Origin: Romanomermis culicivorax
Taxonomy: Eukaryota; Nematoda; Enoplea; Mermithida; Mermithidae
Assembly: GCA_963922205.1 (NCBI GenBank)
Contig: CAWUHX010000111.1
Location: 248,001-312,000, forward strand
Length of the DNA: 64,000 nt
Reading direction: 5' to 3'
Shown: positions 18,149 to 55,300 of the stretch, piece after piece
Layout of the letters: each line of letters opens with the position of its first letter
Numbering within the stretch: the stretch's first letter is position 1
Made by a program: the position numbers and the translations under genes
Notes under the pieces: model-generated
Database searches by the model: none
Told to the model about the DNA's origin: nothing
What the model saw: only the letters and a program-made list of their open reading frames with translations

Positions 18149-18493
18149 AGAAAAAGTTGAAACATACAAATTTCGGCTTTCAAAATAATGTATATGACGA
18201 TGACGAACGAAAACTGTAGAAAAAAGCACAAAAACCGCCAGGATAATATTTCATTTCACCTTTCAAAAGATAAAATTTAATACAAATAACATGTGCGATA
18301 TCCACGATTCATTATCCAGTTTCTACTACTTCAAAGACGAGATTTTTCGAATCTCAAAAGAAGTATGGGATCTAAGTCAAAAATTATCAAAGCCCGATTT
18401 ATGACAAAAATTATCAATATTTCCAATTTCTCAAGTGGTAGAAGCCAAACTTTTCTTCAAAATATAATTAGAGACTAAAATATATACTACAAC

Positions 18494-30400: not shown

Positions 30401-33022
30401 GGTACCTAAATCCGGATCCGTGTTACCTGGAAGGTTTCAGGATCCGGATCCAGGAGAAGCATTTTTAATTACCCGGATCTGTAAGAACCCGCCAATGTTT
30501 CCTGTTTCCTTTTTAAGCCGAAATTGCAATTTTTTAATCAGTATTTTTCTGCAAGCTGTGCAAACAGCGTAATCATAAATATTGGAAGGCATTGCTGTAA
30601 ATATAAACTCTAAATTGTTATATTGATTTGTATTCATACCTGTACTAGGGGGGTTGGGGGGACCCCCCCCCCCCAATTTGGCCAACCTTGTACCCAACAT
30701 CATCCAACCCCTCCCCAGTTTGGAAAAAATTAAAAAAATTTGCAAAGTGTATGTTTTTTGGCCTTTTTTGGGGAAAATTTCGACTTTTTTCTACCCCCCT
30801 CCAACTGGTCGGAGGTCTTACAGGTATGTTTGTATTAGTACAACCGTAGGAATCATGAAGTATGGTTTTTCATGAAAACAAATTACGGATTAGACTTGAA
30901 TGAAGATAAAGTTTTTGTTCGATTTTCACAACTTTGCATTACATAAGTTTAATTGATTCACCATTGAAGATTTTATCATGCAATTTTCTATATTAATTTA
31001 CATTCCTGAAGTTCTGTAGTAGCTGATTACACAGCAGATCTTACTCATCTAATAAACACTTCAACAGAATCGTTTGAAGATACACGAATTAAAATTTCTG
31101 CGTAATCACAGCAGCTGTGATTATTACTACCCGTATCCGGATTCGTATTTAGTTGAGCTGATTACCCGGATCCACGAAACTCATTTTCAATCACCCGGAT
31201 CCGGAACCTGATAGAGGAAAGTTGATTACCTGGATCCGGATCTGGAAGATTGAAAATCTTGGGTCCGTTTTATCTCTAATGACCAGCCTTTCTTGTGCTG
31301 TGCCCACTCTGATCTGATCGCAGTTGTCGGTATTAAGCGTAATTTTTCTCTTCAAATTCAGCTTCCTTCCTACAGTAATCGGACAGATTAAGCACTGAAG
31401 TTGCCCACATTGAACACCTTGAAAAATATGCTTTTTAATAGAGAAAGAAAAGGAACTGGAACGGAAAGAAAATGGTGCAGACTAAGAAAAGACGCAAAGA
31501 ATCAAGTTCTTGGATAAGCCAGGTACAGACTCAGGTACCTGTCACATGAAATTAAAGAGAATTAAAATCTTAGGTAAGGTAAGTAAGACAATCGACTCGG
31601 ACTTAAGCTAACTGTACCTAATGTTATATTACAAATCATAACACTGTACACGCAAGGTAACGCACTAACCATTAATAAAATAACGTACTTGCCGAAGCTG
31701 TAAGGAAATTGAAATTTTTTGGAAAAATTAGCCTACTAAATTAAATTTCATTTTATTTTATATTTTATTTCGCTATACTACGGTAGCTGTGTGAAAATTT
31801 GTCGGAGCGTGTGTAGAATCTTGACTTTACTTATACTTCACTCCACAAAAAAATGATAGCTAGCTGTCTGCGGGAACGGTAAAGTGAAACCTTACGCACT
31901 TGGGGTCCATCTGCGGGGAGGGTAGTGCGCATAAGGTGGTATATCATTAATAGTATGGTCAGGGTGCCGTTACATGTACCATCCAGTTCTTATCAAAAAT
32001 GGCAAATATTTTTTGGATGCTCAGTTATCACAAACGTTAACAGATCTGTTTTCTAACTGTCAACGGCATTATTCAATCTATATTCTCACTGGTAAGATAT
32101 GTTAAAGCCTGAAGTGTTGGAAACCTGATCGCCGCGGAAATATATAAATGCGTTACTATTCTTCAATTTGAACTGCGTTCCACGCTCTGACGTTTCGTAC
32201 CCGCTTGAAAAAGATAAATTTCAGCCCAAAATAAAGTAAAGAAAGTAGGAAAATCAAACCTTAAAGCCACCAACTTTGGCGAAAAAGCGCTGTCGCCGTC
32301 GAAAACTTGCAGAAAATCGGCGCAACATTCGATAAAAAAACGGTCGAAACGGAAAGTCAAGTAATGAAAAATGTCAGTAGAATTCGACGTAGTATTGCCC
32401 TCCAAAATCCACGTACATTTAATATTTTTCGTGAAATTGGAAAAGCCGTCGGTGATATAACCTGCTTCTCCGATTTGGCTATAATTGAAACAATGTATTA
32501 ATTTTTTTAATTTAATTAATTAATTTTTAATTAATTAATTAAATTTAATTAATTAATTTTTAATTTTAATTTCAATAATTAATTTTTTCATTTAGTTCAC
32601 ATATTTAAATATAGATTATTATGCAAAAAATCTTACTTTGCACGACCGCCACAAAGTTCGCAAAATCGACCGGTGAAATTCGGTGGACAAATACAATTTC
32701 CGCCTGAACAAATGCCACCGTTAAAACAGGGCTTCGTTTTAACGTCGCATTTTAAAGCGGTCGACATTGATAACAGACGATTTTGCCGACGAATTCCGCT
32801 ACCACCGCCGCTGCCATTTAGGATGTCGTCAACAAAATTTCGCGCTTCTTGGCTGCTCGAAGAAGGTTGATATAATTGTTGTACGCTCAATAATTGTTTA
32901 GAATTTAATTTAGGTTCATCTTGTTCGTTCGTGATGCTGGCTTTGTAAGGACGGAATAAATATAGCAGGAGCGGGAGTAGAATGAAAAGACAATTATTTG
33001 CCAATAACGAACATAATGACAT
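18494..33022 (-). CDS. ATRN: Attractin (CUB, kelch, PSI and laminin-EGF transmembrane receptor)
   Basis: Twenty-six exons keep one phase over 4401 nt (1466 residues): 33022-32637, 32478-32260, 32203-32090, 29656-29457, 29397-29235, 29174-29075, 28898-28538, 28388-28205, 28067-27916, 27035-26957, 26899-26835, 24946-24558, 24401-24248, 24193-24076, 23927-23818, 23693-23493, 22578-22174, 21990-21925, 21755-21662, 21604-21558, 21496-21402, 21317-21236, 21091-20940, 19536-19399, 18877-18791, 18733-18494. Order: N-terminal hydrophobic segment (10-24), EGF (~95-127), CUB (~129-240), EGFs, kelch blades (RYGHT, YIIGG, YIFGGY, IYIFGGF), PSI repeats (CGWCDD, GLGRCIEG), laminin-EGF, transmembrane segment (~1326-1347), then a cytoplasmic tail with the family motif MASRPF (1367-1372) and VEPC...GQPGLALASAL. 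Attractins act in melanocortin/mahogunin signalling and neural maintenance; this membrane form matches. It lacks the C-type lectin domain and has an insertion in the first laminin-EGF. Confidence 0.96.
19588..20789. mobile_element. hAT-like non-autonomous element in an attractin intron
   Basis: The left end TAGAGATGAGACGGATC faces the right end, whose complement reads CAGGGATGGGACGGATATCC. Flanks ATAGAAAA (19580-19587) and ATGGAAAG (20790-20797) look like a worn 8-bp duplication. Subterminal GGATCCGG and GGATCCAG repeats lie at both ends. At 1.2 kb it fills almost the whole intron between the exons at 19536 and 20940. No transposase reading frame was seen. Confidence 0.8.
25040..26467. mobile_element. 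hAT-like element with exact 8-bp duplication
   Basis: The ends CAGGGTTTTTTTTAGG and (complement of the right end) CGGGTTTTTTTTTGG are flanked by identical ACGCGAAC at 25032-25039 and 26468-26475. Both ends also carry a GGAGCCA/TGGCTCCT motif and a subterminal GGCTTGTAAAAT or GGCCTGTAAAAT phrase. The 1.4-kb body fills most of the attractin intron between 24947 and 26834. No intact transposase was found. Confidence 0.88.
27114..27872. mobile_element. Mariner-like non-autonomous element with TA target site
   Basis: The ends CAGGGTGGCCCAATTATCTA and CAGGATGGCCGACTTATCTG (complement of the right end) match at most positions over about 29 bp. TA dinucleotides lie at 27112-27113 and 27873-27874. 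The interior around 27545-27745 holds another GC-rich inverted structure: GGCCTGTAGCC, then GGGGGGGCCATGGCCCC and GCCTACAGG. It lies in the attractin intron 27036-27915, ending 43 bp from an exon. Confidence 0.85.
30388..31278. mobile_element. hAT-like element with exact 8-bp duplication
   Basis: The ends TAGAGATTAAACAGG and (complement) TAGAGATAAAACGGACCC are flanked by identical ATGACCAG at 30380-30387 and 31279-31286. Copies of GGATCCGGATCC and close variants lie inside both ends, so it belongs to the same family as the elements at 19588 and 9285. A second element is nested inside it. It sits in the 2.4-kb attractin intron between the CUB exon at 32090 and the EGF exon at 29656. Confidence 0.9.
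30635..30827. mobile_element. 193-bp nested element with exact 8-bp duplication
   Basis: CATACCTGTA at the left end faces TACAGGTATG at the right end. Both flanks are TTTGTATT, at 30627-30634 and 30828-30835. The interior has a GGGG/CCCC run. The right end GGTCGGAGGTCTTACAGGT resembles GGTCGGAGATGTTACAGGT near 34350-34373, so the family is dispersed. Confidence 0.88.
32497..32592. repeat. AT-only simple repeat
   Basis: Runs of TTAATTAATT and AATTTTTAATT extend over about 95 bases in the first coding intron of attractin. Confidence 0.95.
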
Positions 33023-33058
33023 AACTTTTAGTTCCCCAATTGTCGAAAAGATAAGCGC

Positions 33059-33072
33059 CTGAAATAGAGAAA
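33059..33072 (-). promoter_or_regulatory. Acceptor upstream of the attractin start
   Basis: On the minus strand, TTTCTCTATTTCAG precedes 36 nt of leader and then the ATG at 33022. It marks either a trans-splice site or a 5' UTR intron end. It defines the chosen start, which begins just before the hydrophobic N-terminal segment. Confidence 0.6.
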
Positions 33073-33463
33073 AACGATGCAGATAATAAAGGGGTAATAT
33101 TGTAAGTTTCAAATTGCAAGAATCAAAATTTTGTAACGATCCAATGATATGACGAACACGTAAAAAAAGGTAAAAATCGTGTCAACCCTATTTTACATCG
33201 ATTCCCGCCAGTGACATAAGAAAATCTGTACGAGAAAACGGTTTACGACTCACAAAAAAATGGAATACTGTGAGTATTCAAATATCTCTATGGAATTTTT
33301 AGGAAATTTTCCATTCATTTACAGCTACGAATTTCTTTCTAACAGCGACGTAAAGATCGATGTTGTTTATATACTTGCTTAATTCTGAAGAAATTGAAGT
33401 TAAAAGTTGCACAAACAAATTAGACATGCCTGCAGTCGAACCTTAGCTGGGATACGGACAATT

Positions 33464-35393: not shown

Positions 35394-38300
35394 ACTGTTT
35401 TTTTCCACGAACTTCTTTCCACAAATGTGGAAAGGGGTCAAATTTTTTTTCCACATGTGGAAAAAAATTTTTTCCGTCTTAAAATCCCCGTTTTTTCGCT
35501 TAAAATGTTCACAGACGCTTTATGAAAGAAAGAAAGAAATTTATTAAATGCGAATAAATACAAGAGTAAATGCGACTAATACAGAAAAGCTCATGGACGT
35601 GACAAAAGCACGTGCGAATTGAGCTTTAAAAAACGACTCAATTTATACCGAAAACAGGGCATATTGTTCGAATGAATGATATCATTGGGTAGGGAATTCC
35701 AAACATCAATATTTCGCGAGCAAAAATCATGTTTTAAAGCGTTAGAGTTATATTTCGATTTATACAATCTAAATAAGCTAGACGCGCGATAATTGAATGG
35801 ACTCAAAGTTAAAAATAGGTCGGGTGGAATAACTTTAAATTTCAAAATTAAGAACATGTAAGATAGGTCGATACACTACGTCTAAATGCAGGGTCATCAA
35901 GGCCAGATTTGTTGAGGCGCTCCTTATAGCTTAAATATTTATATCCAAAAAGTCTTTTTGTAAACCTTCGTTGAACTTTTTCTACCAATTTAGTATCCTC
36001 AGCCAGACAAGGATTCCAGAGTGGTGAACCATATTCCAGGATGGGGAGAACATAGGATTTAAAAGCCCTAATTTTTAATTCATTGAAGTTAGAGTGAAAA
36101 CATTTTAAAATCAAATTTGCCACCCTAGATGCTTTTTTAACCACATAATTACAATGGGCAGTTGCTGACTATTTTTCATTGAACATAACACCAAGATCCT
36201 TCATCTCTGAAACAGTAGGAATCAGAAAATCGTTTACATAATACTCAACTTTGGGGTTATTACTCCCAAGATGCAAAACAGAACATTTTTCCAGAGAAAT
36301 AGATAATTGCCATTTCAATGACCATTCATAAACTTTGACAAGATCGCCTTGTAGTACTTCAGCATTTTTTGTGCTATTGAATATTTTCACATCATCAACA
36401 AAAAGATAAATTTCACTGCTAATACCATCAAATATATCATTTATGAAAATCAGGAACAATGTTGGTCCCAATACACTAGCCTGAGGAACCCCACTAGTAA
36501 CCTTAATTGGATTAGAGAAGCAATTGCTAATTTTTACCTGTTGAGTCCTATTAAATAAAAAACCATGTAACCATCTCAATAAAAAACCAGATATGCCATA
36601 GGAAGCTAGTTTTCCAAACAGTTTTTCATGAGAAACAGTATCAAATGCTTTCTGAGAATCGATATAAATTGAATCTGTTGCTAGTTTTTTATCGAAATTT
36701 TTAGCCCATAATGTTTTACAACTTAAAAGCTGAAGGACACAAGATTTTTTCTTTCTAAATCCAAATTGTCTATCATTCAGAAAATTATTTGGCTCAAAAT
36801 AAGCCAGCATGTCTACATTTATAATACTTTCCATAACCTTACATGAGACACAACATAAAGAAACTGGTCTATAATTTTCTACCTTTGCTGGGTCCTTTTT
36901 TTGAAAATAGGTACCACATTTGATGTTTTCCAAATATCTGGTAATTGTCCAGTTCTAAATGAAATTTCCAAAATTGTTCTCAAAGGTTCTGCCAAAACTA
37001 GATATAATTTTTCCAGGAAAAAGGCACACAGACCATCAGGACCAAGAGACAGTGTAGGCTTCAAATATTTTGGAGTCAATAGGACTCTTAAGAAATCAAA
37101 TTTGATTGATAAATCTTTATTAAACTGCTTTTGAGAATATTCAGGGATTTTTTCATTGTCCAAGATGAATACTGATCCAAAATATTGGTTGAATATTTCA
37201 CTTTTCATTTTATCATCAGTTATATCACACTCACCAGAAACAATAACAGGGATAGTGTGTCTCAACTGAGTTTTATTATTGATAAATCTATAAAAATCCT
37301 TGATTGAATTCGATTTTAGCAAACATTCTTCCTTTCTAGCATAATATTTGATCACTGCAGTTTTCAAGACTTTGGAATTGTGTTTCAGTCTATTTTTGTT
37401 GGCAAAACTACGATTTTTAACATAATTTTTCCACAAGTTTTTCTTTATTGATTTTAATTTCAAAAGATACTTTGGCAATTTAGAGGTTTCTGAGAATTTT
37501 TTCTTTTTGGGAACAAATTCCAGTATTAATTTCTTCATTAGTTCTAAAAAGACAAGATAGAAGTCATTAACAGTAATGCATTGCTCGAAAAAATCTGTCC
37601 AATCGACTTTTGCCAAATAGATTTGAAGAGATTCATAATCAGCTTTCCTGAAATCAAATTTATCATCATAAATGATTTTATCCTTGATTCTAACATTGAT
37701 ACTAAAATTGATAGTACAATGGTCACTTGTAAAAAAATTTTCCCCTACGGTGCAATTATTCATAAGACCAGGGAAATTACAGAATACTAAATCCAGAAAA
37801 TTATAGCCACGAGTTGGTTTCATTACAAATTGCTCAAAACCGTTTCTTGTCAAACAATTGTGCAGTGGAAGGGCAAAATTGTCAATATGGGAAGAATATT
37901 CATACTGTTTCAAAGATGGTAGATTAAAATCTCTAAGAATTATACATTTGGAATTATCTGCAACACAAAATTCAAAAAGTAATATTAATTTACCCAAAAG
38001 TTCAATGTCATATCTGGGTGGTCTATAACAGTGTATGCATTTAAGTTTGACACCAGTCAAAATAATTTCAAAAGTTACAACATCGGGTAGAGATTTTTCT
38101 GGGGGTATCTAGACATTTTAACCTTTAAATTGTTTCGATATACAGCAGCAACGCCACCTCCATTCTGACCTTTTCTATCACAGCGTAATACTTCATAATC
38201 GGCGTCAACACAAATGAGAGCATCTGGGATCTCATCAGATAACCATGTTTCAGTTATGAAAATAATGTCAAATTTTAAGGACATCAGTAAGTTTTGGAAT

Positions 38301-38827
38301 TCTGTGAACTTATTTACAATGCTACGGGCATTGAATAAAATAAAATCGCACTGTTTTTGAGCTTTTTCAAGCCTTCCGGTGTTCTTAGAGAAGTTAATTG
38401 ATCAAAATGGAAGAAAAAATTGAAATGTTCGACTTTAAAGCCTAATCTACAGGCATTGTTGAATAAATTTTCTAGCAAACTATCCAAGACCATAATTGAT
38501 TTAAATTACACGAGAAATCGGTGGTCAAGTCTTCTATGATGACGACAAGTAAAAGTCCCAGAAAGATGGTAAATTTTTGGGGTATATTGACATTCTAAGA
38601 TGCTGGAAAATCAATTTTCCGAACATTTATTTGAAGAATTAGATTCCAATTTTGTGTTCAAAAGTCGTAATTTCTAGGATTTTACTTGAAAAATTTTAAA
38701 ATCTGTAATTTATTTGTAAACTCTCATGAACTTGGTCGAAAATATATGAGTAAGAAGAGTATAAATTTTCGAAAGATATTTCCATCAAGCTTCTGAATTG
38801 ATTTTACTTTAGCAAAAAAATAATCGC
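35394..38827. repeat. Right arm of the fold-back element, interrupted by a LINE
   Basis: Bases 35394-35523 mirror the inner part of the left arm and 38347-38827 mirror its outer part. Without the insert, the junction reads GACGCTTTAT then CGCACTG. This agrees with the left arm complement CAGTGCGATAAAGCGTC, so the LINE entered after the arms had formed. Confidence 0.85.
35524..38346 (-). mobile_element. Decayed non-LTR retrotransposon (endonuclease plus reverse transcriptase)
   Basis: On the minus strand, the 5' end begins inside the endonuclease domain (NARSIVNKF, then FITETWLSDE, GGGVAAVYR, TSDHC). The reverse transcriptase follows (FGFRKKKSC, IDSQKAFDTVSHEKL, GVPQASVLGPTLF, LFVDDVKIF), and the distal segment includes YGSPLWNP and VEKVQRRFTKRL. 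The reading frame is broken near 38075, 36900, 36160 and 35850, so it cannot make a full protein. The catalytic motif reads FVDD rather than the usual F/YADD, and the GVPQGS motif has A for G. The 3' end carries a TTTC-repeat tail (35524-35540). The layout fits a jockey/CR1-type LINE. It is 5' truncated. Confidence 0.9.
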
Positions 38828-39109
38828 ATTAGAAAGCATAGAGACTTGACGTATTGATCTTTATCAAAAGGAAATGATGCGAATCATCATTAAATATCAT
38901 GATAAAATATTGAAGATTACCAATTAAAACATGAGATAATACGTTTAAGATGATGAAAACTATTATAGATTAAGTGATAATGAAGTTGGACATGATTGAA
39001 GCCGCGCCTGAGCTACTTAATAAATAATTATAATTAAGATTAAAGTTTTTTGAGATTTGGATCTCCTAAAATGCACCAAAATGCATCTTTTCAATATTAA
39101 AACCCCAAA

Positions 39110-39330
39110 TTTGTCCTCCACATTTGTGGAAAGACCTCAAAAATTTTTCCACATTGCAGATTTTTTTTCCACAAGTGCAAGTGTGGAAAAAAACAGTGAT
39201 CAAAACGCATCTTTTCGGTTTAGAGTTCCCTAAACATTTTTCCACAATGAGAACCATACCCAAAATTTTTTTCCTCATTTCGAAATTTTTTTCCTCAAAA
39301 GACCCCATTTCAGGAAAAAAACGGTGAGTG
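39110..39330. repeat. Dispersed repeat sharing CCACA and CCTCATTT phrases with 34250-34600
   Basis: CCACATTTGTGGAAAGACC, TTTTTTCCACAAGTG, GAGAACC(A/G)(T/G)ACCCAAAA and TTTTTTTCCTCATTT here recur in the fold-back region (34290-34600). It is a diverged copy of that material, lying just outside the fold-back element. Confidence 0.65.
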
Positions 39331-39642
39331 GATGGCATTTGGCACAATTAAAACTGCATGGATTTGTGAACCGTGCAGTACAGTAAACTATCATCTACAG
39401 CGAAAGTATTTTGTAAAAGCTGTACGTTTACAGCAATATAGATTTGTGACATAAAATATGTCTGTATACATCAGGAGCTTGCCGATTCGAATGTGTTTTC
39501 TCGTTCAAAATCAGAACTTTTTCGATTTTTATGAAGTAGACGAAAAATCGAAATTATAGTTCATTTATATCGAAATGGTTGGTGCAGCGGCAACAAAACA
39601 AAATAGGTTAAAATGCGCAATTTTCAGGAAGTGAAAAATTCG

Positions 39643-39887
39643 ATAGTCTGTTTTTATTGAAATGCGTCTAAATAATAAAAGTGGAAAGCAAGTATTATTT
39701 CACATTTTCACGATTTTCCGATGAACACTATGCCATATAGGACTTGAAGTTTGGGAGCATGCTGAACTAACCATTGACAATTTTTCTAAGGGGAAAATCT
39801 TACTGTAAGAGCTCAAGCGATTTTGACGACATCACTGGTTTGTGTCAGCTTTCAGTTTGAAAGCATTTTATAAATAAAAGACTATAT
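39643..39887. mobile_element. AGTCTG MITE family, copy 1
   Basis: Left end TAGTCTGTTTTT...AAATGCG; right end AAGCATTTTATAAATAAAAGACTATA. The body phrase AGTGGAAAGCAAGTATTATT is shared with most other copies. It lies in the intergenic region upstream of the peptide gene. Confidence 0.85.
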
Positions 39888-40824
39888 ATTGTTGGAATCA
39901 TGCAAAGTTCTGTCATGACAACGGAGGGCGAAAATCTATAGTAGCAACGTCATGGTACGCACCTTCTGGTTTGGAAAGAACTATATCGACACCTGCTACA
40001 TGCTGCTCCGAAAAATTTCGACCATCTGACCATGTTGTTCAGGGAAATATTATCAGGGTCAATTTATTTACCGCTGATTAACGAGAAAAATTTTGTCATT
40101 GATTACAGTAATAATACTAGTTTTCCGTGTTAATCTATCGTATTGCGGCATCCATCATCCAAAATGGACGACGACTTCATTATTCAGCTTATAATGACTC
40201 TCCTCGGAAATTTTCACTCCTCTTCAGAGATGCGTGCTTTCTAAAAGAGCTTATCTAACAAAATTCAGACCACAGAAATCGGCAGCGTATGTTTAATTTA
40301 TTTGAATCTTAGCAGCTTTCATACGGTATAATTATTTCGACCTATTGGATCAAATATGTGCAGGAGGTGTTGATGGCTGTTCATTCTATTTTTCAAATAA
40401 GTATATCGTAGCTCTCTAGAGATCTTATTCTTACCTAAAACTGAATACAGTATGCAAAACGTAACCGGAGACTCTTTTGACGATAAAATGAGGTTTTTAA
40501 CTGTTACGTTTTTTAGTTGAGATCTGAGAAAAAGAAATTTTATATCCCTTCACCTGAACTGATACGGTCGTCCTCCACTTTGCCCCTGCGAATTGGGAAG
40601 TAACTTGAACCCTGCTAGAACGCAAACTACCTGGTTCATCGTGTGACCTTTCAATCCTAATATTGAAATTATTGTTTCGTGATCTTTTTTTCACCGAATT
40701 AATCCACCGGAAATTATCAGGTTCAAGGTGAGTGGGATAATACAGTGAAATAAAAATCGTTTTCTTGGCTACTAAACTTCCTTTGATCACAAATTAAGTC
40801 AAGATGACTTTTTATGTTGCATAA

Positions 40825-40918
40825 AGCCCAAATCAGAAGTGCAGTCGCCGATTGTGGCCGACCGTCGCCGATGGTCGGCGACAAGAATCCTAGGATTTTT
40901 TCACTTCTGAATAGGGCT
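40825..40918. repeat. Small inverted repeat with GC-rich centre
   Basis: AGCCCAAATCAGAAGTG faces CACTTCTGAATAGGGCT. The centre holds GCCGACCGTCGCCGATGGTCGGC, itself an inverted repeat. It may be a very short transposon relic. Confidence 0.7.
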
Positions 40919-41696
40919 CAAGGGATACACTACAGGCTATCTCAGATGCCATTTTCAAGCATTTAAAACATGCTCCTCAGTCATTCCTTTGTCTTCTTTG
41001 TGAACTGTTCATTTATGGCGGCACAGTTACGCTTCATGATAAAAGATTTTGTGGACATGCTATTTATCGGCCACCTAATTTTTTTCGTTCATTTCATTTA
41101 TATCATGCTTTGAATGACTTATTTGTTTTTGAATTTGGAGAACGGAGAATTGTTATATTTTGTCAAGGAATACTCCTTCACCAGATTTGTCGAACTAATT
41201 TCGGTCCTACGCCACAATTCATGCTCTGGACATGTTTGTATGTTTTCAACCATACAATAATTTGTTTTGAAATGTCAATCCTATGCTCCAAATTTGATTG
41301 TCACTCAAATTTTTCATTTTGTGAAATAAAATCGGGGAATAAATGTGAATATTTTGACTTCAACAAAATCTTGATTTTATATATTTTTCTTTCTCGATTT
41401 CAAATCCAAAAATTAAAAATGTGTAGCCTGTCTTCTGAACTTCAAACCGCAAAGAAGAAAATCATATTGTCGTACATTCTTACTATAAATTATTTGAAAT
41501 CATCAGAACTGTCTGAAAATTTATGTTCCTGAGAAAGTTTTTTCTTTACTAAATTACAGTGAAGTACAGCGTTTTGTGTAAAACTCTCGTATATGACCAA
41601 CACATTCACCCAATGATCAAATGGTCCAATAGTTTAGAGTTTGGTGTATTCATCAATCTTTTTTGGAATTGCTGTAGTTTACCGCAGCTTGTTTCA

Positions 41697-42065
41697 GATC
41701 AGTTGTCATGATTTCCCATCCTAAAATCATTTGCGTATTCAACTTACTGATCATGAGTCAATTTTTGAATTTCGATTTCGGCGGCGGTGCTGGAGCCGTC
41801 GTAGCGGCGGACGCCAGCAATTATTTTGAATCGGACAAACGAGCCGCCCCGTACGAGGCCGTGCACCGGGAATTGCGCGGCTCGCGCACCTACGGCGTCA
41901 GCTTCCCGCGCGGCGGTCTAGGATTCGGTTTTCAAAAATCCAAGTATAGGCCCAATCGGTACGGCTCCCTTTATAAGGTTGTTCGGTGAAGAACTTGAAT
42001 TTGATATTGAAAATAGCTGTCGTTCAGTTATAGCGTTGGAGCGTAATCAATTTTTTAAGAATAAA
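41697..42065 (+). promoter_or_regulatory. Transcript borders of the small peptide gene
   Basis: An acceptor GCTTGTTTCAG ends at 41697, ten bases before the first ATG. AATAAA lies at 42060-42065, 71 nt after the stop. Together they outline a compact transcript of about 0.4 kb with no intron. Confidence 0.6.
41708..41989 (+). CDS. Unrecognised small secreted protein, possible peptide precursor
   Basis: A single exon of 93 residues. The N-terminus is hydrophobic (residues 7-20, IICVFNLLIMSQFL), like a signal peptide, followed by a small-residue stretch GGGAGAVVAADA. A dibasic site ESDKR is followed by AAPYEAVHRELRGSRTYG, then VSFPRGGLGFGFQ and KYRPNRYGSLYKVVR. GC content rises sharply over the coding part compared with its flanks, as in the real exons of neighbours. 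An acceptor sits 10 nt before the ATG and a polyadenylation signal follows. No family was recognised. It could be a neuropeptide-like or antimicrobial-like precursor, or an alternative first exon of the channel gene 4.3 kb downstream. The last is less likely, because the frame stops at once after a weak donor (AAGGTTGTT). Confidence 0.65.
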   Translation: MISHPKIICVFNLLIMSQFLNFDFGGGAGAVVAADASNYFESDKRAAPYEAVHRELRGSRTYGVSFPRGGLGFGFQKSKYRPNRYGSLYKVVR

Positions 42066-42069
42066 ATTT

Positions 42070-43670
42070 AGAGTATGAAACTTGGTATGCATGGTGGAGA
42101 TAAATATTCAATTAAGTCAGCAGTCGAAATTTCAAGTTCTGTCATTACTACTCCAAAATTTTCTGTTCATCTTGCTCATTCCGACATCTAATTGTCAATT
42201 TTTTCCATGACATGGATACGTTTCTCCATTTCTGACTTGATTTGATCAAGTGAATTTTCTTTCAAAGTCAAATCTGGCACGTAGAGGATCAGAAAGAAAC
42301 TGAATCACTACTGTTCTTTCATGTTCGATTTAGTATTTCACCGGTTACTGTACGTTATCTCAGTATTTCAGTCTCACTACTAACAGCACAATAATGTTTA
42401 TTATGCGCACTCGAGCTGGGCAGATGTAAGAGTGATTCACGGTTTTGATTTACAAACTGAATCGCCATAAAAAAAACACTTGATTTTCATTGGGATGATT
42501 ACGAATTCATCACATAAACGATTTATTGGTTCCTCGGCTCTAAACTTCTCAAATTTATGAAATCTAGTCTTTTCTGAGTCTGTTTTCCTGGCAAGGACAA
42601 AAACACATTGCACGTGTATTAATAATTTATGACTTACGTTATGTTGAAGTGAACACTTACCAGCAGACATGCACATTGAGGGGGGCATTGGAGGGTCTGG
42701 ACCTGCAGCAGATTTTGGTTGACTCTCAGCAGATTCTTACTGATGCCCAGCAGATTCTGCTCTCCAGCATTGATCAAAAGGATGATGAAGGAAACTGAGA
42801 AAGAAGAGAAGAGAAAGACGTCATAGGAATGAAAATGATGATGTAGATTGACGGTTTTTCTGAACAAAGCATACATCATTCCAAAGAAGTAACATTAAGA
42901 CCTTCAAAAAAGCAGGTCAAGCGATTATTTTCACATATCTGACTAGTTTGCTGGTTGGATGTTAAAAAAATCCTTCTTTTTATAATCAAGAAAAAAATTC
43001 TATTCCAGCCCTTGTCCTGACTGACCCCCAACAGAATTTCCACGCTGCGCATGTATACATACCAGTATCTCTTTTTCAAAAAATACACCAGAAAAAAAGA
43101 TAATTTGAGCTGACGTCAGAAAAGCGAGAAGCGACTTTTGAACAGTATTTTAACACGATCTTGCTGACGCCGTATATTTTTTCAACAGTCTTTTTTAAAG
43201 TTGTATCAAGAAAATTGAAAAAAAAGGAATTCCGGTTTCAACTTGATCTTCTTTAACTCACGATTATATCGAGTTTTCAGAGAAATGATTATGCCGAAAA
43301 AAAAATCCAAGCTTGCACTTTATTTCAAGGAATTCTTAGAAATAAATTTCAACTCTAAAAAGGCATTGTTTCAAGTCTAAGTGGGAAGGAATGTTTCATA
43401 AGGCTTTCCGATGAGCTAAAGCTGATGAAGTATCGCATAATAAAAATTCTGCTTTCCCCACAGAAATCTGCTCAATGAAACTCATAGCATAAATGAGCTT
43501 TGTAGAATGGGATCATGCGACCACATTCGCACCTTATTTGAAAATTCTATATTTTTGAGTACTCAATAGACCTCTCTCCAAGTCATTAGAACGAGGTGTT
43601 ACTTTTATTCCGATTATTGAAGAAAAAATTAGTCCTACAGCGGTCCGCTAAAAGTTCTGAAACCTGTAGT
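42070..43670. other. Intergenic, no feature supported
   Basis: Short overlapping frames only; no repeat ends or gene motifs were recognised. A CAGCAGATTYT phrase recurs several times at 42703-42760 (GCAGCAGATTTTGG, AGCAGATTCTTACTG, CAGCAGATTCTGC). Confidence 0.4.
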
Positions 43671-43675
43671 TACCT

Positions 43676-43923
43676 ATAGTCTGTTTTTCCAAAAATGCTT
43701 CTAAATAATGAAAGTGGAAAGCAAGTAGTATTTCAGATTTTCACAATTTTCTGATAAACAATATATCATATAGGACTAGAAATTGGTGAGTATACTGGCC
43801 TAACCTTTAACAATTTTTCGAGTGAAGAATTTTACAATGAAAACTCTATGTAAACGATTTTGACAACGATACTGATTTGTGTCACTTTTCTATTTGGAAG
43901 CATTTTATAAAAAACAGACTATA
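43676..43923. mobile_element. AGTCTG MITE family, copy 2
   Basis: Left end TATAGTCTGTTTTTCC...AAATGCTTC; right end AAGCATTTTATAAAAAACAGACTATA. The body contains AGTGGAAAGCAAGTAGTATT and the ATATAGGACTAGAAATTGG phrase. TA at both outer edges fits a TA target site. Confidence 0.9.
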
Positions 43924-43924
43924 G

Positions 43925-46299
43925 TGTTGAACGTTTTTCAAACTGGTTTAATCGCCTTGAAAATTCATATCCATACACACAGTATACCATAAGTGGTACT
44001 CGTACATAGTAAACCAGTGCTTTTTAATGCCAATTTTTACTCTGGTTTTAAAACAGAGTTAATCAACAATGTTCGAAATGTAAGCCTACTGTATTTTCAT
44101 TTTTCCATTTTTCTGAAATTTTCAACATTTCCTTGATTAGAGCCTGCTGGAGGATCGAAAATTTCGTTGAAAAATCATTAAAATAATTCCTTATAAATAC
44201 TGATTCTATTGTCTGTTTTTGTTCGAAACTATTCAAATTATTCAAACAACTGTTTTTAAATTTGTTGGTTTTTTCAGGAATCGGTCAAAAAATAATCCAT
44301 GAAGAATAATACCAAATCAGTGATTGTATGTTGTGTTGCATATATCAATTTCGTACTCTTCAAATTTTCAAAATGCATGACGTTTGTGTATATGATTATT
44401 TTACCATCGAACACAGAAGACCAGAAGCTCGAATTAGCTTTGTCACACCGGCCATTTTTGAGGCGATTTCATAAACTTGCGGTGTAGTGCATTTTCACAA
44501 GCCGTAATTGCCCACCTTGATTTGTAATATCTTTAGAATGCTTCTAGAGAAATTTTCTATAATCTAGTTTTTCCCTCTTTATCATGGGTTGTTAAAAAAT
44601 GGCGAACTTTAACAAAACAGTCAACATCTTTTACGGAATAAGTTAGTTCGAGTTTTTTTCCGTTCGTGCTTCTGCTGATATGGAAAATATATGAAAGAAC
44701 AACAGGAGCTATGTTTGGAAAAGTGTGAGGCCAAAAATCTCATACCTAGATTATATGGCAATTAGCTCTTTCAACTCTTTCGACGACTACGAGAAAGAGC
44801 AAGAAATTTTTTTGGGGCTTTTGCTTCGTGTTCATCTGCAAGTTTTTTTTCTGCTCACTTTTGCAAGATAACTATATATTTACTGCCGCATAATTTGTCC
44901 ACTCGAATTTTTTTCATCTGTACGGAATGTTTTTTTCTTATACATTAATTAACTTTTGGAAAGTGCCGTTTAGTCTGCTTGATTTTGCGATTTAATTCGT
45001 CAAAAACAGCTGCGCTTTTTTGGGCGAGCCCGGCAGGCAATTTGAAAATACCTCCAACTTTTTTACAGAGGAAAAGAACATAAAATGTTATGTTGCCGAA
45101 TCTGGAAAATGTCGTATATTTGGTCTTGAATTTGAAAACTCCATTCGTTCATATTTGATATTTTATTTTCCCTCAATACCGGCACATTGCCATAAAGATA
45201 ATTTTAAAAGCTGGCTCGTATTTCAAGTCCAGCTAAGTGGTTTTTCATTGCATGGAGTGTAAAATTTCTATTCGAATGAGTACCATAATATTTGGCATAT
45301 TTCTTCGATATTGATAAATGCCGATGAGTTTCAAAGTTTTGTCACCTTACCGTATGACGGTGGCTTTTCGAAAGTTTTTTTCAGTGCGGCTTGACCTTTT
45401 CTGAATTCTCGAGTTCTTTGTGCTGCTGTGAATCGAAACTGATTCTAAATCTACAAATGAGAATACTGTTAAAACTGTAGAAAATATGTGACTTCAGCAA
45501 TCAACGAAATTTTCCAAGAAGCCATAAACTTTGTAAATTCGGAAATGGGACAAAAAGGCAAGCAGCACAATAGCAACACTGACTAATTTCATTGTGATAT
45601 TAGTTTTTCTTGACACGAATTTCGCAAATTTCATCTTTTATCACATTGCCGGATCAACGCTAAATCCATTTCGATCTTTTCTTCTTCAATTTTTCATCCA
45701 GTGTTAGATGAATTTTCAATCGAGAATTTTTCTGCTATTATTGGAGGAGGTTGAAAAATTGGGTGTATTTGGAATGAAATATTTTTTCTTCAATAAATAA
45801 GACAACTATTTATTCGTTTTTCTGACTACATAAGAATGGATGAAAAATCATCTCTTGAGCTGAATTTGATCGAATGACGATAGTTCTTTTAACGAATGTC
45901 GGCGTGACATGACTGCAGATTCTCATAAAATCTGGTTTTTTTTCATTCAAAGTTTTTAGACAAGTTCCTGAAGCCCTTTTTCCGACTTCAGAAAGCACCG
46001 TCATTACCGTTTCTGAGGCTATAATTTCAAAGCACTTCTAGTTCGCCTGTTCTCAAATTGAATTATAAGACTTTTGATTAATGATTAACGCGTGCCACTT
46101 TATCTCCCGGTGAGTTGGCTTACTGTATTCAAAATTTTTCAATCTTTACCGGATGTTCGATTTCTATGTGTATCTCAGTGATATTCTGCATGAAATATCT
46201 TGCGCCCCTAAAAAATTCTATTGAAATATTTGTTATACGCTTTAAAATTTATTTATTTAAGGAGAAGAAATTTTGCGGAGTTTCTTTCCATTTTTCCAG
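43925..46299. other. Intergenic, probable channel-gene promoter region
   Basis: No gene or repeat could be supported. Open frames here are short and without motifs. The sequence runs up to the acceptor at 46299 that precedes the channel start. Confidence 0.4.
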
Positions 46300-46323
46300 G
46301 AAAATTGATATAGCGACAAAATT
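46288..46323 (+). promoter_or_regulatory. Acceptor upstream of the channel start (probable trans-splice site)
   Basis: CCATTTTTCCAG ends at 46299, 24 nt before the ATG at 46324. All three frames crossing this acceptor stop before reaching the channel frame. It therefore cannot join an upstream coding exon, and the start at 46324 is favoured. Confidence 0.65.
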
Positions 46324-49300
46324 ATGAGTATTTGCTTAAACCGTCGGACAGATTTCGGTCGCGGCGTCAAAAATACGTTCATCGATTTTAGTGAACACAC
46401 TTCGGCTCACGGCATACCGTACATCGCCAGGTCCAAAAGGCGAAAAAGTCGCATTTTTTGGACTTTAGTTTTCTTTTGTTGTTTGGCTACTTTCATCTAT
46501 TTGGCTTTAGCTTTATTTTTCAAGTATTTAAAATTCGATAAAACGACTCAAATCGATGTGAGTATACGTGAAGATGCGACTGAAAATTTTTGTTAAAAGT
46601 TTGAACAGGAATAAATCACTCAAAAATCAAGCAAAATTGATTTTTCCAGATAGATCTAGTCAAAATCTATCGAACGATATTTTGAATTTAATTTGAATTT
46701 GAATTTAATTTGTAATTTCATGCATTCACGTAGCAGTAACCCGCAATATTCTTTGATACATTTACTTTGAAATAGACCATACATTTAGGAATTTAGTGAT
46801 GGAAATTCATGAAATATTAGCTATTGTGTGCCCATACTCCATATCGTTTCATGATCATGACCTGTCAGACGTCAGCAAACAGTGTATCAAGGTCTAGATG
46901 GCGTCAAAAAGATAATTCCCTAAGTTTGTAACATTGGTGGCAGGGGCGAATTTTTGACATCATGAAAATTGGCATCTATTGGGTTATCAAGACACATGAG
47001 CTTTCTACATGATTAAATCACTCAAAAATTAAGGGTAAAGATAGCCACCTTTTCAGACAGGTCTTGTCAAGATCAATGTGGACAATTTGAGATCTAGTGG
47101 TGATGGCAGACGTAATCATTCAATGTCGCAGTAGATTTTGAAACTCATTTACATGCGAATCCTACAAAATTTTTCCGGGAGATTAAGACGTGTTTGACGT
47201 CATCAGTAAACAATTCCTCATGATCGTGATGACGTCAGAAAAAGGAATCTCACCTTGGTGAGATCTGTGACTAATTTTTTACATAGAAAAAACCATTTCT
47301 CCCGAATTAGTCGTCAAACTTTATACTTTGTTGTCTGCGTGTCATCGTTCTAAACAATTAATCAAACAAACAAACAACCGTAAATTATTCTTTTTTTTGG
47401 GTTTGTTTGCCTTTTTCTGCTTTTTTCTTCCCTTCGAAACGACGTCGTCGTCATTTTTATAACTTTTGGCCCTGGAAAAGTCGAGCGCGGTTGTCGTCGA
47501 TCATTTTTTTATGGTCTGAATTCCTTTTTGAAAGTAGCACTATTATTTTTCAACAGCTAAAAAGCCGCCAAATTTCGGGACTTTGTTTTTGGAAGAAATA
47601 TAATTTGTTGCTAGAAAAATATATAGCTCCGAAAGCGAAAAGTTTGGCGCTAAAACCTTGCAGACGTCATGTTAAAATCAGCCATTCACATCTGTCGATT
47701 AGTTCAAGCAAGAAAAAATTGATTTACTGTAGCTTCGATTACTCCGGATAAGTTGGTATTTCACGTTCACTTTTACATGAACAGTTTCCATGAGATATGC
47801 GTGATAATTATGTAGCTAATCTTGAACTAACGCCAATCAGGCCTGGCGCAATGCCAGAAAACTGAATAATGACTTTGAACCTTCATTTTTGCTTTCCAAA
47901 AAAGCCAATTTCGTCAAAAATAATTCGTCATTCCGTAAATCATTCTCTGTTTTCGCGAAAAACTATGCCCCATTTTTCATTTCAGTTGGAAAAATTATTT
48001 TTCAAAAAGTTTCTAAAATAGAAAAAAATGGCAAAAATTCTAGAAAATTGATTCATTTTTGAACTTAAAGTTTAAAAATAGTAATTTTGATGCGTTGCTT
48101 ATTTTAGATTTCCAAAATGAAAAATAATGGCTGAAAATTCTACGTCCCATTTGTAAAATAAATAAACGCTATTCTTCCAAATTTAGTATGAAAATGCAAC
48201 GCTGCAAAATGTGCATTTATGAGTCGAAAAATGAGGAGCAAAAATAAGATAAATAAGTGATCCTTCTTTAAAAGACATTTTTTGATTATTGTATTTGCGG
48301 TATAAATTTAATTTTTTGTTTATATCTATTTTCGCTTTCTTTACTTGAAATAGTTCTGAATATAATAAGAGTGGAAAGTGAGTAACATTTCATATTTTTA
48401 CGACTTTTTGATAAACCATATGTCACGTAGAACTGGAAATTGGTGAACAAACTCAACTGACCCTCAACAACTTTTTGAGAAAAAATTCTGCAGTAAAATT
48501 TTTGTATAAATGATTTTGACCAAAGTGCTAATTTTAGTCATTTTTCAGTTTGCAAGCATCTTATAAAAAACAGACTATGGACAAGTGAATTGGTTTTGAG
48601 TGGGAATGGCTGTCAAGCATAAATAACAATTTTTTCTGAAAAATTTAACGGACTTTAATTTTTCAATCTTCGTTTCAGCTCGAATTCCGCAATGCGCCTT
48701 TTCCAGCAGTGACTTTTTGCAATCTCAGTCCATACAAGGCTAGCGAGGCAGCCAAAGTGGACAGTCTGAATAGAGTGGTAAGTCTGTCAAAAGAATGATC
48801 ATACTAAAAAAGAAATTAATCGAAATTTCTTGGTGTCTTGAAATTTGAAAGAGTTTCAAAGTACTGGAAAACTAGTTCTAGGACATCAAAAAATTGTTCT
48901 GCTCCTAAAAACGTTACAACATAGGCATCAATCGATAAATTTAGTCTTGATTGATTTAAAAACACTGTTTAAAATTCGATACGACTTTTTTTGACGAAGT
49001 CATGCATGTCCAAATATTAGGCTGCTCCCTGTAGAATTTCTTTCCTTGAAATGTTATGCATCTGTTTTATTTTGTGTTTGTTAATTTTGTTTCTTTGCTC
49101 TCAAAAATTCTTCTACTGTTTTTTATTGTTTTTTTCTATATTGTCTCTGTCCACATTTTTTATTCTTGCGTTCATCGTTTGAGCTTTTTTCTGTTATTTT
49201 CCTAACATTCACCCGAAATTTCTTTGTTAGGATTCCTAAAGGCCCTGTCATACTTCGCCGCGAGGCGCCGGTTGTCCTATTCATACTAACAAGCGGCGTC

Positions 49301-52300
49301 CCGCTGTACCGCGCGGTGGCTTGTCATACTTCGCCTCGCGGTACCGTGCGGCGCCGTACGGCGCCGCTTTTTTACTTTTGGATTTTGCTCTTCTAAAAAA
49401 ATGTGTATTGCTCGTCTCGACAAATGCAAAATACGAAAAATGCGAAAAAGGTGAAAAATACGAAAAGAATCGAAAAACAAAAAGCGCAAAAGAAAAAGAA
49501 AAATCAATCATTCCTGCATGGTGCAGATGGAAGCTTGCAAAAAAGCCAAGTCTAAAGATTTTGCTTCAATTTGCTTCTCATTCCAACGATTAATAGCTCT
49601 TGAACTGCTGAGAAATATCAATTTATATAAATTGATTTTGAAAAATTGAATATATATACACGCTTATTCATTCACATATGTGCTATATACAGGATCCAGA
49701 TCAGATCTGGACCCGGTCGCACCCGCTGTTTAGGACCCAGATTCAAAGTGGATCTACCTCCTTTCCCTAGTACTCGGGAAATCGGGACGTTCAGGGAATA
49801 GAGACTAATGCATTTTTCGGGGAAATAAAAAATTTATTCATTATTCGGAGAACCGGGACCTACGGGGAATATGAACTTTCGGACAATTGGGATATTTGCG
49901 GAAAAGGGACGTTGGGGGAATGAAGACACAATCGAAATGGAGTACACTTGCTGTAGGAACATGTTTACACCTCCTTTGCATATTCATAATTTTTACACAT
50001 TATAATGTCTTCATTGCACATTGAGTGATCAACTTCTTAGTAAATCTTCATTGAAAATTAAGTAATCAATTTGGTAAAATAATTTGACAAGTGTCAGAAT
50101 TCACCATTCAAGTGAAAAATATGATTCAACTACATGTATAGATGTCTCAGTATGCAAGAAAATGTTACAACAACATTATGCTGCAACTTTATAACACATA
50201 ACTTGTTCGAAAATTTCGGTTTAGTTGAAACTTGATGGCAGCGCCGCGCGGCGCCGCAAAAATTACAAAAACCTATTCATACTTCAGAGGTGGTATCGCG
50301 CGGTACCGCGCGGCGCCGCCTTTTAGTATGGATAGAACAACCGGCGCCGCGCAGCGAAGTATGACAGGGCCTTAAGTCTTTTTGGTACTTTTTTTCATGA
50401 ACTGTGTTCTGTGTCCCATACTGTTTTTCTCGATTTCGCTTCGCCTCTATGATACTATTATTGAACATTACTTTTCGTCTCAGAAGGTAGGCTTACAATT
50501 CCTTAGCTAGCAAAACTATTATCGTCCATTCTACAATAATCCAATCTACTTTAGTTTCTTGCTACCGAATTTCGTGCATTCAGAGCTTTACCCACCTACA
50601 GTAAACTATTGCTTTTCACTATCAATGTTTCCTATCATCATTGAAACTATTTATGAAAAATTACTAAGGTCGAATCTTGGTTTAGATAACGGTTCCTTTG
50701 AGAATAGAATTATTTTAAGTCAAACTATTCATTGATGCTTTTCCACAGTTTGTTGACTATTTTGGGAGAATTTTCACTAATTTGTTCCGAAAAATGGAAA
50801 TAGTTCCATAGAAAAATTCTGCGACTGTTTTTCTCTAACTATCGTGGACTACGATGTTCGTAATGTATCCTCTTGACTTGATGGGAGTTCACTGACTACT
50901 CGAACTCCTTAATGAATAAAAAATTTGCATATTTTTTTAAGATAAGTAGTTTCAACGACGCTTCCGCCAAATTAGCTCCTAATGAAGAAGCGGAAAAGGA
51001 AGTTCCAAAAACCCGAAAAGTGGTTCAAAATCGTAAAAAACGTCAAATTTGGTCATCAACTTCGGAAGAAGAAGACAAATCCAACCGTTTCGTGCCCGTT
51101 TACGCCCACTGTAATTGCCCCCGCGAACCGCCGATCAGGGCGCCGAACGACGACGCCAATCACCGCTCCCGACGAGTCGACCCTACGATAGCGGCCTGCA
51201 CGCCCACCATGAACGAACCGAACACGTTCGACCACCAGTGCCTATGCATCTTCGACCAACTAGAACGCAAGCCTTGGTTGTGCTACGATTTAGACCATTG
51301 GTCCAAAAGGCAATGCACGAAATGCGAATTGACCATCGGCCGGCACGGCCGATGCCCGACCGGTCTGGATTCCAGGTACGCCGGTTTAGCGGCCAGCACC
51401 ATCGAATGTATATGCCCCAAAGCAACGACCTCTTGTCTGGAAGGTTTGGAACCGTACGGCAAATTGTGGACGATGGGCAAAAGCCCGGTCGAATTGTATC
51501 CGGAAAATTTCTACGAACCGTTGCCCGATCCGCCGGATCCCGAAAAACAATTCAAGTTCAAAATGACGTCGGCATTGCGAGCCGACTCGAACGGTACCAA
51601 TGAATCGGAAACGGAGAGGGAGTATCCACCGATTCAAGTAAGTCAGACCACGTTATGTAAGACCATTTGTTCGCAATTTGAACCACAAAAATGCTTGCGA
51701 ATAAGATTACTGTAGAGTTCGAGATTACGATAAAATTACAAATGTTTACATTTTATAGTTCGATAGCTTATGGGAATGCGAGTAACGTTACACTAACTTT
51801 TTTGTCTAAAGGTCATATTTATATTAAAATTAGTATAAATGTTGTCTATAGTGGTAAGTTCACCTTCAACAGTTCAACAACAGTTATTTAAAGAGACTAG
51901 AACATGTATTAAACAGATAATATATGAGCACAATAATGTCCATTAAAAGAAGCGTTCTTTCTGATACACCATGAAATACACAATTCTGAACTATGACGAA
52001 GTCACATATAAAAATGTGGGGGTTCAGGTTGCCTTCTAATGAATAACTTTTCTCATATCAGCAAGCTTTATCGAATGTGATTTTCCACTTTCTTAAATGT
52101 GTTATACTATCTGAGGTAGAGTATAGGTTACATTTATGTGTAAATTTCGGTGTAAAGGAAGCCAGTGGGCCAAAATTGTCAGTTTAACATTACTCAGATT
52201 GTTGTGAACTATTGCACGCACCCGTCAGTCATCGTACGAAAGTGTGGTTTATTTTTTTATACAGTGTTTCTTCTAAATCGATAAATGACACAAATATGCA

Positions 52301-55300
52301 GTGGCTTGAAAATTTTCAACACAAGGCTCTTACTGTAGAATTTTTTACTGAAAATTTTCTGAAGATTAGTTGAGTAATGTCGCAAATTTTCAGTTTCGTG
52401 ACATGTATGATTGATTTTCGGGATTCGTTGTTTAGAAACGTTTAAAGAAATACCGACTATAGGAACAGCGAAAAAAATTAGTGTACAACACTGTATATTA
52501 CCATAATAAAGGATTTTAATTACTGAAGACTAAAGTGCAGAAAACCACTCTGTAAAGGATCCATATGCGATGGAAAATGAGATAACTATGCAATGAGATA
52601 ACTATCTTACAATGGTTACAGTAGGTTACAGTATATTACTTTAGTGGGAAAGATCACAACAGCGTAGATCACTGTAATATATTGTATGGCATGGAAAGCT
52701 ACAAATTAGACAAGAGAACAAGATGAACTAAAATATAGTCTGTTTTTTAATAAAATGCTACTATAATGAAAAATGACACAAATATTAGGTGACTTGAAAA
52801 TCCCATAGATGAAAATTCTACTGTACATTTTGTCACTCAAAAAATTTTGAAGTGTTAGTTGAGTGTCGTCACAAAATTTCACCTCCATCTGATGTGCGGC
52901 TAAGCCGAAAATGCTGAAAATATAAAATAGAACTTGCTTTATAGATTCATTATTTGCAAGCATTTTATGAAAAACAGACTATAGAAAAGTATGCTGATAT
53001 GAAGGGAATAAGAACAGAAATAATGAAGAGCGTGGAAACGTTTCTGCATGCAATTCACTTCCTAGAAACTTGAAAATTTGGGAATAACAACCATAGTCTG
53101 TTTTGCAATGCTTGTGAATATTAAGAGTGGAAAGCAAGTACTATTCCATATTTTCACCATATTCTGCTAATCCTTATGTCACACAAGACTGAAAATTTGT
53201 AAGCCTACTGGACTGACCCGTACTATTTTTTGAGCAAAAAGTTTTCAGTAAATTCACGGCGTAAATCACTTTGAATGCGGTACATTTTTTGCTATTCTTC
53301 AATTTTCAAGCATTTTATAAAAACTACAATGACGGGATGTTTCAACACATTTCATTCTAAAATTAGATTAATATAGCATTTGTTAACTGAAACGTGCTCG
53401 TCATCCACGCTGTCATTTCTAGGCTTTTTGTCGAATGTCGACACATAAGTTTCCGGTTACAAGATTAAATGTACTATATCAAAAAGCCATGTAACAATTT
53501 TAAAGCAGAGAAACGCAAAAGAGGACAAGGATAATTCAGAATATCAGTTTACTGACGTCATTTTCAGCAACTCTTTCCTCAAAATGTTGCTTTTTTTAGC
53601 CCGATGCCACCGACGTCGGAACCATCAGGTCCCAAGCCGAAGATAGTATGATTTTCGCTGCGGCCAACCTGGACGTGGAAACGCGTCGTAAAATAGGCTC
53701 GCAGCCCAAAGAATTCATCAAATTTTGCTCATTCAATCAACGGGATTGTTTTCCATCGTAAGTGATTTCAAATGTTGAGTTTTCTGAACATAAGTCACGC
53801 ACCTTGCTCAGATTGAGAAGTTGGACAATGAATTACATGTTCTGGGAACATTGATAAATTATCGTATTGCAGCAAGAAAAATCAAACTTGCCCAGTCAAG
53901 AATCTTCGGTATTTTCCTCATCTACTGCAATTTTTTATTGTAAAATTTCATGCACATAGCTATACGTTATAAAACCTTTACTGTGGAAATTATTGACCAC
54001 TAAAATTTTCAATATTTAAATGCTACAGATGATTCAGAATTTGGAACTACAGTAATTTTAGCATTGGTTGCAACAAAATCTCAAGAATTTCTCGATTACT
54101 GCAATATATAACACTTTAGGTTTGCATTTTCATCGACTATACATATTCTCGAAGTTTATCAAAAGCAATTGACGTATGCTTGTCGCGCTATGAAATATTA
54201 GCAACTTTTGATTGCATTCACCTCTCGCTGATATCAAATTGGCAACTAACAATAATTACATTTCTTGTAGCATTCATACTGCATTGAGCACGATACAGAA
54301 ATTGGATGATCAGGATTTGGTGGAGGAAAAATAGGACTACCTGATCACTCACGAATTTTCGAATTTCGTTGCTTATGTTCTTTATCATAACGAAATTTCA
54401 TGTTGTAGCTATTCTCGCATTAAAATCGAGTAATTAAGAGTATGCAACCTATTTCGTGCAAATCTTGCTTTATAAATTCTTTGCAAGCATAGTTCCCTAA
54501 ATTTTGAAATCATGGAACTGCTGAAGAAGATTTACAGTAATGTTGGCTGTGATCGCAAAAAACCAGAACCTCACTTACTTGATTACTGTAACACCTTCAA
54601 AAGTTCTTTTTTTCGATTTAACACACATGGTTTTGGGTTTGAAAAATAGGTCTGATATCAACTGTAAAAAAAGATATGCGTCACTATAGTTATTTTAGTT
54701 CATCTTTTAGTCGACGGCATTCACATCTTGCTGACGTCAGATGCCTTTCAATTTTTTAAAATATTTTTTAGGTTTTAAGATCTGTAGGTTACATTAGCTG
54801 TGGTTCAGCATGATCGGTTGTTACTGAAGGTAACATTGCTAATTCATTGCAAAATGAAAAATCATAAAATCATCTTCTGATCAGCAAGACATGTCCGAAG
54901 GAAGTGAACTGTTATCTTCCTTATGATATCTGAAATCATATTGCTGACTTCAAAAGTAGCTTGACCTTTGCATTTTACAGTGATTTTAAATCTTACGTCG
55001 ACGAAAAATTCGGCAATTGTTATACGTTTAACGCTGATGCAAAACAGATTCGAACGAGCACCAGGGCTGGACCCATGTACGGTAAGTATAAGAAGTCTTT
55101 TCAGAATATTGTTAAGTAGTTTACTTAATTAGCAATTAGCGCTTAATAGGTTTATCAGTCGTTCTATATATCAACGCCAGCCAATATTTGCCTACAGTTT
55201 CGGGAAAAGGTGTCAAAATCGCCGTCCATTCGCCGGACGAGTACCCGTTTCCGGATACGTTCGGCTATAACGCACCTACGGGATTTCTGACGTCATTCGG

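Follow-up and report, generated by a model that had tools for sequence, protein, structure and literature searches.

The window analyzed here, a stretch of 64,000 nucleotides from a contig of the nematode Romanomermis culicivorax (CAWUHX010000111.1), contains on its plus strand a short open reading frame (ORF; Table 1) that lies between two dispersed repeats and upstream of a channel gene. The reading frame is free of stops from 41678 onward, that is, also ahead of the ATG, and 10 nt separate the ATG from the end of a candidate splice acceptor (TTGTTTCAG). Splice sites were scored with matrices built from the 13 introns of the neighboring channel gene, and acceptors scoring at least 10.0 occur at 0.38 per kb on the plus strand of the window. 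An initial annotation of this DNA, made from its letters, had proposed an acceptor, an ATG, and a polyadenylation signal within ~370 bp; all three were borne out, although an AATAAA would be found by chance within 100 nt in about 13% of cases here. The same annotation held the coding part to be far richer in GC than its surroundings. This is correct overall, with a GC content of 0.55 at 41750-41999 against 0.256-0.424 in the bins of 38000-46000 outside the ORF, but not for the beginning of the frame, as the rise in GC starts at about 41774 and not at the ATG. The first 25 codons have GC contents of 0.28, 0.20, and 0.52 at codon positions 1, 2, and 3, respectively.

Table 1. Coordinates, within the window, of the ORF and of the observed and predicted features associated with it.
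Feature	Position	Strand	Basis or remark
Candidate splice acceptor (CGCAGCTTGTTTCAG), cis or trans	41683..41697	+	Matrix score 10.0
ORF	41708..41989	+	93 codons from ATG, coordinates including stop; product of 93 aa
Signal-peptide-like N-terminus, residues 1-30	41708..41797	+	Hydropathy; core at about residues 7-16; predicted cleavage, for example, after A30
GC-rich part with the strongest coding score of the ORF	41774..41968	+	Score 43.6, rank 4 in the window
DKR, candidate dibasic cleavage site, residues 43-45	41834..41842	+	Sole dibasic pair of the product
Predicted 48-residue basic C-terminal peptide	41843..41986	+	Composition; pI 10.7, no Cys, no amidation Gly; processing putative
AATAAA polyadenylation signal	42060..42065	+	70 nt past the stop codon of the ORF

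The dispersed repeats flanking the ORF are located at ~40822-40922 and ~42660-43057. The first is short and has inverted ends as judged by eye, and a query with 40500-41700 gave 64 matches in the genome, the locus itself included. For the second, 150 matches were scored out of 1549 candidates in the genome (again with itself included); its minus strand has an open frame in which NLL units recur and a CPPQCAC motif is found, and the ends of this frame are splice-like. At 42661-42794, also on the minus strand, an exon candidate resembling the N terminus of a leucine-rich-repeat protein had no Pfam match and was rejected as part of this dispersed repeat, up to 423 columns being aligned in all five of the loci compared. 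Just upstream of the ORF, 40915-41529 holds a 205-codon stop-free frame of ~31% GC with no Pfam match. Further away on the minus strand are frames at 36169-38108, which resemble those of a non-LTR reverse transcriptase, and an attractin-like gene with frames within 22157-33181. In the latter, an Attractin/LZTR1 beta-propeller match slightly above the cut-off was obtained at 28509-28991 and is flanked on either side by laminin/attractin EGF and EGF matches below the cut-off.

Downstream of the ORF, a channel gene was found from a match to the ASC family (PF00858) at 46387-46560. It was modeled by hand as 14 exons at 46324-61115 on the plus strand and then checked, giving one open frame. Over its first 696 residues, the product matches both ASC (positions 1-455, E 2.5e-95) and 28 distinct PDB chains of the DEG/ENaC type. 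The gene is presumably of the MEC-4/DEG-1 type. Its exons at 50942-51637 and 60478-61112 are GC-rich. In a channel intron, GC-rich inverted ends (CCTGTCATACTTCGC...) lie ~1.1 kb apart at 49240-50374 and look, by eye, like those of a terminal-inverted-repeat element.

The predicted product of the ORF is MISHPKIICVFNLLIMSQFLNFDFGGGAGAVVAADASNYFESDKRAAPYEAVHRELRGSRTYGVSFPRGGLGFGFQKSKYRPNRYGSLYKVVR. The signal-like N terminus that had been proposed appears in the hydropathy as a hydrophobic start, the best 10-residue Kyte-Doolittle mean being 2.9. Among the 601 ATG starts on both strands of the window that open a frame of 25 codons or more, the ORF itself counted, a fraction of 0.0166 match this value. 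The DKR motif that had been singled out as a cleavage site is also present; the product has no dibasic pair other than K44-R45, this pair does not follow a Gly, and the last residue is R93. The region after DKR had been described as rich in Gly, Phe, Arg, and Tyr, and its 48 residues include seven Gly, seven Arg, and five Tyr, but just three Phe, so that the description holds for the first, third, and fourth of these. Prediction of the fold from the single sequence gave a mean pLDDT of 58.5, with two helices (residues 4-25 and 31-34) and, close to the C terminus, two short strands; in this low-confidence fold, helix 4-25 overlaps the signal-like N terminus.

The coding character of the ORF was assessed with synonymous codon frequencies derived from 2199 codons of its genome. 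These came from 19 kinase-matched segments, namely those without stops among 30 fetched loci. The ORF scored 9.4 bits, compared with -7.2 +/- 6.3 for its dinucleotide shuffles (p = 0.0073). A separate run of 2000 shuffles gave p = 0.0045, and inclusion of the codons of the channel gene in the reference set gave p = 0.0080. About 4% of the shuffles stay open, and against 67 open shuffles alone the value was p = 0.015. The 14 open frames of the GC-rich islands at 49176, 50201, 57176, 33401, and 15276 all had p >= 0.16, while one of three frames of a further island, at 18476, reached p = 0.046 and 0.035. Note, however, that a frame on the strand opposite the ORF (41747-41917) gave p = 0.007-0.017, and that in a calmodulin exon and in the first channel exon an antisense frame beat the true frame. 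Because antisense frames score alike or higher, the codon score alone does not fix the strand. Similarly, in a ranking of coding-like segments across the window, the antisense segment of the GC-rich patch scored 39.5 against 43.6 for the sense segment. The three segments that outrank the latter lie on two GC-rich channel exons, one of them being a shadow frame, and the plus strand from 41990 to 46324 holds none of the window's 45 best segments.

ATG ORFs of at least 80 codons were then screened for the joint presence of an acceptor, a hydrophobic start, and an AATAAA. All three were present in one of the 32 such ORFs on both strands of the window, in none of 150 from other loci of the same genome (217 kb), and in none of 40 simulated Markov windows, which held 13.2 ORFs each; the thresholds were chosen after the ORF had been seen, and these counts are therefore descriptive. 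The abundance of long ATG ORFs, both in the window and in its Markov simulations, is one reason to consider that the ORF may be no functional gene and instead an open frame that arose by chance, or has decayed, within a patch rich in GC, and the similar codon score of an antisense frame and the lack of a homologue in the sets searched (own genome, Pfam, PDB, viral, prokaryote, and phage) are in keeping with this. We regard that explanation as unlikely, given that the ORF is unusual in each of three respects, namely codon usage, acceptor, and hydrophobic start, that their combination is unique in the sequence scanned, and that the open frames of the five other GC-rich islands first named are not coding-like.

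Relatives were sought in a 359-Mb assembly of 595 contigs and in several collections. Within this assembly, 50 matches to the N-terminal family of nematode cuticle collagens point to a nematode. No second copy of the ORF was found in its own genome at the protein level or at the DNA level, where the search passes over very common words and scores the best candidates only. Its product had no relatives in Pfam or PDB, searches of phages and of viral and prokaryote contigs were likewise negative, and five strings from the peptide had no match in the literature searched. An origin from a repeat or transposon was rejected, there being no second DNA copy among the best-scored candidates, and so was a viral or bacterial origin, there being no relative in the viral contigs, prokaryote contigs, and phages. 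Pfam scans of whole plus-strand frames, with X at stops, returned no matches, but such scans carry no weight because they also missed a known channel exon.

The position of the ORF, on the channel's strand and 4.3 kb upstream, resembles that of a DEG/ENaC cytoplasmic N terminus, and it could be a 5' exon of the channel gene, providing either an alternative cytoplasmic N terminus or a leader exon with an upstream ORF. The channel has just 21 residues ahead of its ASC domain, C. elegans MEC-4 having a longer N terminus, and two more GC-rich islands are channel exons. The channel frame is, however, complete from its own ATG behind an acceptor at 46299 (score 8.9), the best for the first coding exon within reach of that ATG, and sequence joined at 46299 runs into a stop whichever of the three frames it is in, before the channel ATG or out of its frame. 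An acceptor-like site further upstream (46261, 10.2) would leave the same stop in the channel frame, and none of the acceptors by which the stops would be avoided (46313, 46328, 46351, and 46391) scores above -0.2. The last possible donor of the ORF, at 41986 (GTGAAG), scores -0.8, under all 13 real donors when each was left out of the matrix (lowest 2.0). Phase-compatible pairs do exist, for example, donors 41986 or 41851 (3.1) with acceptors 46313 (-1.8) or 46391 (-3.1), but they are weak, and use of donor 41851 would lose about half of the ORF. On the other side, one of the 13 real channel acceptors scores -4.5 when left out, and a donor at 42043 (3.6), past the ORF stop, could make a non-coding leader exon. 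Unlike a cytoplasmic N terminus of this family, the ORF cannot be taken as coding by the good acceptor and has weak pairs only. A coding join is unlikely because of the stops behind 46299 and the weakness of the other splice pairs, and from the splice-site scores and reading frames the ORF is probably not the channel's N terminus; membership in the channel gene as a 5' exon of either kind is considered improbable.

Use of a spliced leader at the 5' end of the ORF, as anticipated in the initial annotation, was not supported. The 22-nt SL1 leader, searched in its exact form only, had no match in the genome, and the Rfam SL1 family RF00198 had none among the 50 scored of 149,498 candidates. When a less strict pattern resembling a leader was used, 409 matches were obtained (204 forward and 205 reverse) compared with 59 for a reversed control, many of those listed being recurring near-identical strings, that is, repeats. 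One poly-C group, in which CAAGTACAG is followed directly by GTATG, was read in context at three loci (L054, L064, and L073). It is adjacent to runs of G and C that are complementary to each other, in the manner of a fold-back repeat, and was rejected as a leader gene. This fold-back-like repeat mimics a spliced-leader gene in pattern searches.

A further possibility is that the ORF is a real orphan gene whose product stays inside the cell, either by starting at M16 or because its hydrophobic start does not serve as a signal peptide. The strongest coding signal does start at 41774, and the AxA-type sites are far from the hydrophobic core. Against this, the N-terminal part is coding-like too (p = 0.033 for the first 24 codons by themselves), and the acceptor is placed 10 nt ahead of the first ATG, and an intracellular product is accordingly given little credence.

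The product was also compared with known small secreted peptides. Nematode NLP precursors are likewise small, with a signal-like start, a basic cleavage site, and no recognized domain, but the ORF product differs in its one dibasic site, its lack of a repeated peptide, and its lack of an amidation Gly. Many nematode neuropeptides are unlike a product with one dibasic site and no amidation signal. The RPamide, allatostatin-C, NPYSW, and nlp-98 motifs, which are the NLP motifs in the portion of PMC8764417 available, were not seen in the product when compared by eye. The glycine-rich secreted peptides (GRSP), a comparison group that we assume to be that of nlp-29/cnc, also are shorter than 200 aa and have a signal-like start with Gly and Tyr present; at 93 aa the product is within the length limit of up to 200 aa, but it has no Gly repeats. 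According to PMC10506718, a GRSP has more than 17% glycine in its mature part, and the value here is lower, at 7/48 (14.6%) after KR or 7/63 (11%) after residue 30. The surveys PMC8764417 and PMC10506718 report reduced sets of known neuropeptides and antimicrobial peptides in clade 2 nematodes.

Taken together, the coding-like codon usage, the strong acceptor, the rare combination of features, and a channel gene that is complete without the ORF support a separate small coding unit that would have a signal-like start. This part of the earlier proposal of a separate gene for a secreted, processed peptide therefore stands, whereas secretion and processing at DKR are predictions from the sequence. 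One interpretation of these data, which we favor tentatively, is that the ORF is an orphan gene, small and apparently with one exon, whose product would be the precursor of a secreted basic peptide. The N terminus would direct the chain into the secretory pathway and would be removed near residue 30, and a proprotein convertase could then cut after K44-R45 to release a 48-residue basic, unamidated peptide with a possible signaling or defense role. Counted against this orphan precursor are the lack of relatives in the collections searched, the antisense score, the uncertain fold, the long distance between the hydrophobic core and a cleavage site with small residues, the single dibasic site with no amidation signal, the codon p-values of the island at 18476, and the post hoc thresholds of the combination.

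It is conceivable, though rather doubtful, that the ORF represents an undescribed, lineage-restricted family of peptide precursors, with the 48-residue basic, unamidated peptide acting as a hormone or antimicrobial. The ORF is likely to be an ordinary lineage-specific gene. Taken alone, it would be one among many lineage-specific small genes; if expressed, it would give a nematode genome one more orphan secreted peptide.
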